Assembly: GCA_947088345.1 (NCBI GenBank)
Contig: CAMUGE010000009.1
Location: 1-64,000, forward strand
Length of the DNA: 64,000 nt
Reading direction: 5' to 3'
From: an uncultured Roseburia sp.
Lineage (GTDB): Bacteria > Bacillota > Clostridia > Lachnospirales > Lachnospiraceae
The notes under the pieces are model-generated. The model did not search any database. It saw only the letters and a program-made list of their open reading frames with translations, and was not told the origin of the DNA. Made by a program: the position numbers and the translations under genes. This document shows positions 3,206 to 44,233 of this stretch, piece by piece. How positions within the stretch are numbered: position 1 is the stretch's first letter; each line of letters starts with the position of its first letter.

Positions 3206-3287
3206 AGGGAAACGCTGATGAAAGCGTTTCCCTGAGTCTCTGTGTTGATTTGAGTCGCGGCAAAGCCGCGATATGGAGGTTGGAATG
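3206..3287 (+). repeat. Double-hairpin leader element, copy A (in front of sbcD)
   Basis: Hairpin 1 pairs AGGGAAACGC (3206-3215) with GCGTTTCCCT (3224-3233) around an 8-base loop. Then come the spacer GATTTGAGT and hairpin 2, TCGCGGC (3255-3261) with GCCGCGA (3265-3271) around a 3-base loop, and then ATGGAGGTTGGAATG, which contains the sbcD ribosome binding site and start codon. The same order, loop sizes and flanking words occur at 43500-43574, with different but still paired bases in hairpin 1. It is either a mobile palindromic repeat or a cis-acting RNA element. Confidence 0.7.
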
Positions 3288-43166: not shown

Positions 43167-43201
43167 AAAACAGGCGGGATGCAAAGCGTCCCGCCTGTTT
43201 T
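43167..43201 (+). terminator. Terminator of the arabinose operon
   Basis: AAAACAGGCGGGA (43167-43179) pairs perfectly with TCCCGCCTGTTTT (43189-43201). The group II intron fragment begins three bases further on. Confidence 0.9.
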
Positions 43202-43203
43202 AT

Positions 43204-43372
43204 GTGCGCCCAGTATGGGCGCAATCTAATCGGTGAAAGTCCGTAACACGCCTTAGTAGTGGGAAGTGTATAGCCAAGAGCAAGGGTGTCCATCGTGAGG
43301 TGGAATCTGAAGAAAGCTGGAGGCAAAACTCTGGTCTGACGAACAGAAATCACATCAGGCTACAATTAGGGA
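43204..43372 (+). mobile_element. 5' fragment of a bacterial group II intron (domain I only)
   Basis: The stretch starts with GTGCG, the group II intron 5' consensus. It continues with domain I words shared by many bacterial introns, such as GGTGAAAGTCCG, GCAAGGGTGTCC, GTGAGGTGGAATCTGAAG and GTCTGACGAACAGAAA. Sequence resemblance fades near 43360-43380. There is no intron-encoded reverse transcriptase and no domain V hairpin, so this is a dead fragment. Its placement right after a terminator hairpin matches the target choice of class C introns. The right end is approximate. Confidence 0.75.
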
Positions 43373-43417
43373 TATTTCAATTGGTGGCATGGCAGGAATG
43401 GCGGCATATGATATTAA

Positions 43418-43498
43418 TGTGAGAAGTACTTCTAATCACTCGCAGCAAAGGCGCTAACGTGAAACAGGTTCGCGCGCGAAGAAGTTCTAAGGCTCACA
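43418..43498 (+). repeat. Multi-helix palindromic element, copy 1
   Basis: TGTGAG (43418-43423) pairs with CTCACA (43493-43498). AGTACTTCT (43425-43433) pairs with AGAAGTTCT (43480-43488) with one mismatch. Inside are a small CGC/GCG hairpin and CGTGAA (43458-43463) paired with TTCGCG (43469-43474) around the loop ACAGG. Copy 2 has the same architecture with altered pairs. Confidence 0.7.
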
Positions 43499-43499
43499 C

Positions 43500-43574
43500 T
43501 GAGAAATGCCTGAAATACGGCATTTCTCATCCGGATTTGAGTAGCGGCAGAGCCGCGACATGGAAGTTGGCGTG
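43500..43574 (+). repeat. Double-hairpin leader element, copy B
   Basis: Hairpin 1 pairs TGAGAAATGCC (43500-43510) with GGCATTTCTCA (43519-43529) around an 8-base loop. The spacer GGATTTGAG leads to hairpin 2, GCGGC (43544-43548) with GCCGC (43552-43556) around a 3-base loop, then ATGGAAGTTGGCGTG. Order, loop sizes and flanks match copy A at 3206-3287. Confidence 0.7.
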
Positions 43575-43651
43575 AAAAGTACTTGTAAGGCTCATGCCAA
43601 AGGGCAAAACGCGAAACAGGTTCGCGCGCTAACAAGTACTAAGTTTCACGC
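43570..43651 (+). repeat. Multi-helix palindromic element, copy 2
   Basis: GCGTGAAA (43570-43577) pairs perfectly with TTTCACGC (43644-43651). AGTACTTGT (43578-43586) pairs perfectly with ACAAGTACT (43632-43640). Inside lie TGCC/GGCA around an AAAG tetraloop (43595-43606) and CGCGAA/TTCGCG around ACAGG (43610-43626). This is a three-way-junction layout shared with copy 1. Confidence 0.75.
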
Positions 43652-43653
43652 TC

Positions 43654-43696
43654 TGGATATGAGATTCCGCGGAGCAAAATCATGGAGGTTAGAATG
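43654..43696 (+). repeat. Degenerate double-hairpin element leading into the ferritin-like gene
   Basis: GGATATGAG (43655-43663) and ATCATGGAGGTTAGAATG (43679-43696) match the spacer and the ribosome-binding end of copies A and B. The intervening hairpin is decayed (TTCCGCGGAGC). It supplies the start signals of the next gene. Confidence 0.55.
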
Positions 43697-44233
43697 GAAA
43701 AGAATAGTAACCCGATGGTCAATGACTGCAATCTGCAGGGAATAAGACCGATTATGGTGGATCTTGCGTATCCGCCTGTTCAGATCAGGGAAAAAAATCC
43801 CCGGTATGCGGATCTGTTGCTGGTTGATTATTGCGGGCCGGTATCAGAGTTGTCTGCAATATTACAATATATTAATAATGAAAACAGGATGTCCGGAGAG
43901 TATTGTTCTCTGATTCGCACGATACTTGGGATTGCAATGGCAGAGATGATGCATCTGCAAAAACTTGGGGAGCTGATCCACTTGCTCGGCGGAAACGTAT
44001 GCTTTGAGACAAAACAGCCAAATGGTCGGTGGTCCCCAGCCTGTCTGACACTGCCCAATTCCATTCCGCATATGCTCAGAGCAGATCTGGAAGCAGAGAA
44101 AGCCGCGATCCGGCAATATAAAATGCATATGAATGCCATCCAGGATGATTGTATTAACCGTGAGTTAAAACGTATTATTCAGGATGAAGAGTACCATATC
44201 ATGATTTTACAGTCACTTATGAAAAACGACTGA
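43694..44233 (+). CDS. Ferritin-like diiron protein
   Basis: A 179-residue four-helix protein. Metal ligands are suggested by GEYCSLIRTILGIAMAEMMH (glutamate, then EMMH) in one helix pair and LEAEKAAIRQYKMHM with IIQDEEYHIMIL in the other, the E-(x)n-ExxH pattern of ferritin/rubrerythrin-like proteins. It may handle iron or oxygen stress, or be akin to Mn-catalase-like CotJC proteins; the exact class is not clear. The ATG at 43694 has GGAGG 5 bases upstream, provided by the repeat element in its leader. Confidence 0.75.
   Translation: MEKNSNPMVNDCNLQGIRPIMVDLAYPPVQIREKNPRYADLLLVDYCGPVSELSAILQYINNENRMSGEYCSLIRTILGIAMAEMMHLQKLGELIHLLGGNVCFETKQPNGRWSPACLTLPNSIPHMLRADLEAEKAAIRQYKMHMNAIQDDCINRELKRIIQDEEYHIMILQSLMKND

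Follow-up and report, generated by a model that had tools for sequence, protein, structure and literature searches.

Two palindromic, multi-helix units stand in front of a gene for a ferritin-like protein in the 64,000-nucleotide stretch of DNA analysed here (the window), and the locus raises the question of whether their common shape reflects selection on an RNA fold or a mobile DNA that forms hairpins, the two readings that an earlier note on the sequence had proposed. Checking of the sequence located both copies of the hairpin unit (HP-A) where they had been placed (Table 1), with TGTGAG..CTCACA as the closing helix in copy 1 and GCGTGAAA..TTTCACGC in copy 2, and with the AGTACTT-type helix and the CGYGAA-ACAGG-TTCGCG hairpin in both; the T-G wobble pair described within the latter hairpin is present in copy 1. 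The copies do not lie end to end, as had been stated, since they follow each other with a period of 152 nt and a 71-nt linker intervenes, which holds two hairpins of its own (HP-B and another at about 43544-43556). The extent given for the element was thus right for the two HP-A copies, but the linking hairpins and the tail reaching to 43692 had been overlooked.

Layout of the repeat and its neighbours

The full module of approximately 152 nt consists of HP-A, HP-B and then a tail with the small hairpin HP-C, and the second module consists of HP-A and HP-C without HP-B. Folding of the stretch 43410-43660 gave z = -5.55, and 0 of 200 dinucleotide shuffles were equally stable. In other species the position of HP-B is taken by GGAGAATGCC..GGCATTCTCC. 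The gene downstream of the array matches Pfam PF00210 at residues 52-177 (E 1.7e-7), a match that is silent on the position of the start. Elsewhere in the window, a lone tail is located just before ATG 3285 of sbcD, and SbcD profiles align with this protein from residue 1; a GGGAAACGC..GCGTTTCCC hairpin precedes the lone tail.

Table 1. Coordinates of the repeat array, its parts and neighbouring features in the window
Feature	Position	Strand	Basis or remark
Truncated group II intron, 5′ fragment, after a terminator-like hairpin	43204..43376	+	Neighbour, outside the repeat
HP-A copy 1, hp1 subtype, long form, inner ACAGG hairpin	43418..43498	+	HMM E 1.1e-21; models R1 and R2 match
HP-B hairpin TGAGAAATGCC..GGCATTTCTCA, terminator-like, without T run	43500..43529	+	Sequence, pairing in fold
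Tail 1 (HP-C): TTTGAG, small hairpin GCGGCAGAGCCGC, CATGGAAGTTG; links modules 1 and 2	43530..43569	+	Tail HMM 43522-43568, E 5.3e-11
HP-A copy 2, hp2 subtype, long form	43570..43651	+	HMM E 2.6e-25; 108.1 bits with R1
Tail 2 (HP-C), 3′ end of the array	43652..43692	+	Tail HMM 43652-43691, E 1e-5; start codon at +2
Shine-Dalgarno-like GGAGG from tail 2	43684..43688	+	Sequence; 5 nt before the likely start 43694
Downstream ferritin-like protein gene	43694..44233	+	Start at ATG 43694 probable; mechanical ORF start 43682
Lone tail, HP-C with GGAGG 3275-3279, without HP-A	3237..3281	+	Tail HMM E 1.2e-9

The sole Rfam match in the window, RF02001 (43289-43418, 61.3 bits), was assigned to the intron fragment. 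A stretch 99% identical to this fragment was found at another locus (L004), where the intron copy is longer and no repeat adjoins it; there the fragment lies behind a terminator-like hairpin and a DnaJ-like ORF and contains an ORF remnant only, both as judged by eye. Derivation of the repeat from the group II intron was rejected, as blastn matches to the intron only (L004, L017, L039) are located apart from matches to the repeat only.

Distribution of the repeat

The repeat is dispersed, and its distribution differs between species. A query of 43200-43700, which includes the intron fragment, gave 76 matches in the genome containing the window (G000), and HMM mapping of the retrieved regions yielded 169 units in 124 arrays from 17 genomes, with 88 units in 54 arrays in G000, 39 units in 33 arrays in a sister species (G048) and the rest in 15 others. 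The search with covariance models that the earlier note had suggested gave matches to the long-form model (R1) in 17 of 60 genomes of the genus and to the short-form model (R2) in 15 of 200 genomes of the family, representing 200 genera, and in 3 of 293 genomes of a class sample, one of them outside the family; the own genome is included in all three counts. Within the genus the range is from 77 matches in one genome, a lower bound as these were all 77 scored candidates, down to none in 43 of the 60; since at most 77, 26 and 17 candidates per genome were scored in the genus, family and class searches, respectively, copy numbers per genome are lower bounds. Further copies and covarying helices (see below), the lack of which would have spoken against the proposal, were both found. 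The class-sample genome outside the family (G538) has two copies on one contig (L311 and L314), 7.6 kb apart, which could be due to contamination or to transfer by a mobile island.

The short form of HP-A measures mostly 58-67 nt and the long form mostly 79-83 nt, with a few longer. The other species listed have mostly the short form, of about 59-70 nt and without the ACAGG hairpin, and in one genome (G004, L083) a different extra hairpin is found where the ACAGG hairpin would be. Scanning named genomes with a pattern yielded at least 108 stretches; among the 80 of these that are listed, the titles are mostly Lachnospiraceae, the others being Roseburia, Acetatifactor, Parablautia, Lachnoclostridium, Ruminococcus sp., Clostridia bacterium and uncultured bacterium. 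The named-genome and genus sets share a few loci (e.g. L186, L223, L239 and L254 with contigs of G004, G020 and G048). From one compilation the window was omitted, together with L019 and L040 as duplicates. In one gene cluster, seen in both the own genome (L021, contig C29) and the sister species (L141, contig C73), modules occupy several intercistronic gaps with a content that differs by species. A recurrent extra piece was also observed at array ends in the own genome (e.g. L003, L021), namely a short GTGAAA..TTTCAC hairpin followed by GGCGATTTGTGTC..CACAAAGTCGC, a purine-rich stretch and then ATG.

Covariation of the helices

The helices covary, and the compensating base changes noted between the two window copies recur across the family. 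In an alignment of 51 short forms (A3), which is biased because the pattern of the named-genome scan fixes much of the 3′ arm in most rows, changes on both sides occur in 18 of 23 pairs, compared with a shuffled mean of 9.1 (sd 1.0; 0 of 500 as high); 94.6% of the cells are paired, and shifting the partner by 1-3 columns abolishes the signal. Double changes in this alignment amount to 177 cells versus 6 cells with a one-side wobble change. It combines 41 named units with 10 units of the own genus, 45 of the 135 named units having passed the length and similarity filter. Among 45 long-form units of the own genome, changes on both sides were found in 4 of 21 pairs, mostly between two subfamilies; this number of pairs is not above that of the shuffles (mean 3.6; 299 of 500 reach 4), and the number of double-change cells is in excess, with 68 versus 30.1 shuffled and 0 of 500 as many.

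A second alignment of 138 matches (A4; 124 distinct genus rows) is free of the pattern bias but fitted to the model. G-T pairs and A-C mismatches in the helices number 49 and 58, respectively, in A4 and 6 and 35 in A3. A constraint acting on RNA only should favour G-U, and G-T pairs that are no commoner than A-C therefore point to a palindrome at the DNA level. Judged from these sequences, the pairing may reflect a DNA-level constraint or arm correction more than a proven RNA fold, although the comparison is not decisive. As regards selection on an RNA fold, as proposed earlier, the evidence points both ways, the G-T and A-C counts towards the DNA level, while the sense bias reported in the next section shows that orientation in the operon matters. 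In short-form units the first A of the loop never varies, and the unpaired AA of the 3′ arm hardly does.

Position relative to stop codons and orientation

In 37 of the 124 arrays the stop of a long upstream sense ORF ends at +1, so that TA|G spans the boundary; it ends at +5 or +6 (TGA inside GYGTGA) in 12, and anywhere within -13..+6 in 75, while 10 arrays have no long-ORF stop within -200..+20. Of the named loci, with arrays starting before base 300 left out, 63 of 107 have a stop within -13..+6. A target-weighted null for the 64-kb window, limited to intergenic sites and gene ends, placed 7% at +1 and about 18% within -13..+6, the ORF minimum being 90 codons in the null and 60 (124-array set) or 80 (named loci) in the observed data; genes in all position and orientation counts are long ORFs, not curated calls. 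For 23 diverged copies from other genera, 9 are within -13..+6 of a long upstream ORF stop and 10 are without such a stop within 150 nt. Genes observed beside the arrays belong to unrelated kinds. At one locus of a named Lachnospiraceae MAG (L211, 2698-5023), the gap between an 885-codon upstream ORF and mutL holds an array of two units.

Between codirectional genes, 164 arrays are sense and 6 antisense; this tally of 241 arrays, drawn from slightly overlapping sets, excludes 24 convergent, 25 divergent and 21 incomplete cases and one inside an ORF. Furthermore, the element strand is the leading strand by GC skew in 18 of 20 regions of 20 kb in the own genome, with L331 mixed and L338 opposite (two of the 20 regions overlap and one array is counted in both). 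As the element strand is mostly the leading strand, gene direction and fork direction are confounded.

Boundaries and junctions

The left boundary was read from 186 distinct flanks, which show A at -1 in 95%, T at -2 in 66% and G at -7 in 57%, with a variable position -3, and the unit begins with G at position 0 in 87%. Only arrays with a YRTGA motif close to the beginning of the unit were used, and from these 217 a further 6 duplicates and 25 tail-like flanks were removed. A Shine-Dalgarno sequence is a weak candidate for the insertion target, being found in 30% of left flanks versus 16-23% of control windows.

Comparison of the own genome with the sister species revealed one empty site, the only one read, which follows livF in the sister species as GAATAG|GCAGACGG (also given as GAATAG|GCAGACGGAGG); at the matching livF TAG the own genome carries an array with two HP-A units. 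The right end is not sharp at this site, as about 40 nt from the last GTTAG to the shared flank are unmatched in the empty site. In 10 or 11 further matching region pairs both species have arrays (for the pair C14/C32 the alignment is limited to the repeat and its immediate sides). In one pair, extra module sequence of the own genome lies exactly between ..GCGAATA and the next G, and other pairs differ in the end of the array or in module content. Presence and absence at orthologous sites, a hallmark of mobile elements, is thus observed as one empty site and as module differences in further pairs. Together with the dispersed copies and the covarying helices, these findings favour the mobile-DNA side of the alternative put forward by the earlier note. 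At the empty site and in the module comparisons no long target duplication was found, the repeated bases being TA or TAG at most; nor were inverted terminal repeats seen by eye, as GYGTGA.. at one end is not the inverse of ..ATGGNGGTTA at the other. Modules begin with G and end in TTA (or TTC), so that every junction restores a target site, which explains the head-to-tail arrays.

The tail and the start of the next gene

In the genus regions, 17 of 76 terminal tails are followed by an ORF of 80 codons or more whose first start codon stands exactly at +2 after ..GGNGGTTA, other near offsets being +1 in two tails and +3 in one; for the named loci the start is at +2 in 6 of 28. Considering all terminal tails, GGAGG lies 5 nt before an ORF start in 23 of 104 and there is no start at +2 in 81, and no offset except +2 has more than 2 cases. 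Profiles of proteins from the tail-set starts align from residue 1 (RapZ, Pfam), 3 (FabD), 5 (thiamine diphosphokinase) and 6-7 (MurD). Such support for the start is absent for two tested proteins, the match of the window gene beginning at residue 52 and L032 giving no match. Among the diverged copies from other genera, several in one genome (G108) retain the tail. According to the tail HMM, only 3 congeners besides the own genome and the sister species have tails, yet in other congeners all 34 arrays between codirectional genes are sense, so that the supply of a Shine-Dalgarno sequence cannot explain the whole sense bias.

Search for a mobilizing enzyme

A match to the Y1 transposase profile (Y1_Tnp, PF01797) was not obtained in either of the two genomes richest in the repeat, G000 and G048, an absence that is not certain as these genomes are 90.5% and 87% complete, respectively. 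In the genus as a whole, 20 of 60 genomes have such a match, and these are not associated with the repeat (7 of 17 carriers versus 13 of 43 non-carriers). Mobilization by a RAYT is accordingly unsupported. For TnpB, two matches were found in each of the two richest genomes, and the retrieved flanks contained no unit or tail. The integron integrase profile TIGR02249 gave no match above the cut-off in these two genomes, both of which have weaker tyrosine-recombinase matches. One fragment of a tyrosine recombinase in the own genome (L340, contig C2, about 80405-80653; a 121-codon frame, below the integron cut-off) is located beside a degenerate unit and tail. In the search for an autonomous parent, 19 long stretches separating units or tails were listed, and the nine that were inspected contain host genes as judged by eye, one gene (MutL in L211) being checked against profiles. 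None of these searches found a transposase tied to the repeat.

Possible origin and maintenance of the repeat

The repeat is probably a mobile, non-autonomous family that is tolerated in operons because its ends supply translation signals. A module is composed of HP-A, an optional HP-B and HP-C with the tail ..ATGGNGGTTA, and inserts at (T)A|G, between the A and the G; copies persist mostly within operons and in sense orientation, directly at the stop codon of the upstream gene or shortly after it. In two frames the upstream gene receives a stop from the 5′ boundary (TA|G, or the TGA inside GYGTGA), and the tail can give the next gene the Shine-Dalgarno sequence GGAGG 5 nt before its start codon; with both signals supplied by the module, insertion need not break the translation of either gene. 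Mobilization presumably takes place in trans by an enzyme acting on the hairpins, and tolerance through the stop and the Shine-Dalgarno sequence would drive the position and the sense bias. A wider version, according to which family-wide "operon-joint" elements target the stop/start joint, carry a two-frame stop, hairpins and a spaced Shine-Dalgarno sequence, and spread in sense without silencing by means of unrecognized machinery, is more tentative and in our judgement falls slightly short of being probable. If true, a mobile element would here inhabit the operons of an abundant gut-bacterial family in a translation-aware manner, and many intercistronic regions of Lachnospiraceae would be explained.

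The 164:6 sense bias, the concentration at stop codons and the covarying structure could also be produced by a cis-acting RNA that serves the host, i.e. a hairpin behind the stop that tunes termination, mRNA ends or stability, or the gene ratio in the operon, with position and orientation under selection. The presence of arrays in both species at 10 or 11 matching region pairs is in line with such a role, as is the ribosome stalling reported, in the available part of that source, for REPs of E. coli that lie no more than 15 nt from a stop codon (PMC12306157). This explanation is nevertheless unlikely, for the helices show no preference for G-T over A-C, presence is patchy in both the family (15 of 200 genomes) and the genus (none in 43 of 60), module content differs at matching sites, and the genes observed beside the arrays are of unrelated kinds. 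A little less doubtful, although still on the unlikely side, is a special form of the mobile-element explanation, namely a strand-specific single-strand DNA element (IS200/IS605, REP-RAYT or attC-like) handled by an HUH-type or similar enzyme, whose orientation would follow the replication fork and, with genes on the leading strand, give rise to a sense bias. It agrees with the 18 of 20 regions on the leading strand, the mostly Watson-Crick arms, the junction that recreates the target and the hairpin near each module end. However, genes in those regions are themselves about 81% leading-strand by length (summed figures), from which the fork alone would predict more antisense arrays than the 6 of 170 counted in the wider genome set, and the two richest genomes gave no Y1 transposase.

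Covariation could even arise without selection, if palindromes were kept by template-switch (quasi-palindrome) correction and the dispersal were an old passive duplication. Counts of G-T about equal to or below those of A-C, and the predominance of double changes over one-side wobbles (177 versus 6 cells), are what arm correction would produce. It is nonetheless very improbable, since the module-exact differences and the position bias need more than arm correction, and the invariant first loop A and near-invariant unpaired AA also argue against it. Under the mobile-element explanation, which we prefer, the repeat offers a clear case for telling apart selection on palindromes at the RNA and at the DNA level, and it provides a search image for the mobilizing enzyme.

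Comparison with known systems

An Rfam match at gathering score was not found over a unit in the window, and among 11 short-form loci searched with E up to 5 there were 4 matches, none on units. A literature search, from which most subscription full texts were out of reach, did not turn up a Lachnospiraceae repeat of this kind, and both results agree with the statement of the earlier note that no named family has this layout. By the tests made, the repeat lacks defining features of the REP-RAYT system, the classical MITE and the integron attC site. The attC site is a folded palindrome just behind a stop codon, conserved in structure and variable in sequence, with the core boxes RYYYAAC and GTTRRRY. 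The junction GTTAGY departs from GTTRRRY at the third R, as judged by eye; the flanks are ordinary operon genes instead of a cassette array, and identity with attC is unsupported in view of the lack of an integron integrase above the cut-off in the two richest genomes. A MITE has terminal inverted repeats and a target duplication, which this repeat does not show.

REP, BIME and REPIN sequences are similar in being extragenic palindromes, some of them beside stop codons and in operons, and in having a tag before the hairpin, which is GTAG in REP and TAG in the Lachnospiraceae repeat. They differ in that a REP or REPIN has a GTAG (or CGTC) tag and a palindrome of 20-40 nt, whereas the unit described here measures at least 58 nt, has further hairpins and is variable at -3; moreover, REP-RAYT requires a Y1 transposase flanked by the repeat, and the own genome and the sister species contain no Y1 match. 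A search for the terms Firmicutes, Clostridi and Roseburia found no mention in PMC3733652. The bcr1-bcr18 repeats of the Bacillus cereus group are likewise dispersed and intergenic, some being MITE-like and some having a conserved structure, and are often found in UTRs or intercistronic mRNA (PMC3446304); they belong to another host, and the available part of this source describes no fit from stop to start.

The closest architecture is that of BOX (boxA-boxB-boxC) in Streptococcus pneumoniae, which according to the available text of PMC3049150 is modular, tandem, dispersed and predicted to be structured, has been proposed to be mobilized in trans, and supplies the stop codon of a gene in 36 cases. 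The resemblance concerns the modular, tandem, dispersed architecture and the stop codons in a different host, and is one of architecture only. BOX has terminal inverted repeats, while none were seen by eye in the HP-A family, and the same text describes neither a sense bias of the 164:6 type nor a tail that places a Shine-Dalgarno sequence. On the analysis as a whole, the repeat is thus best read as a modular, non-autonomous, BOX/REP-like mobile repeat.
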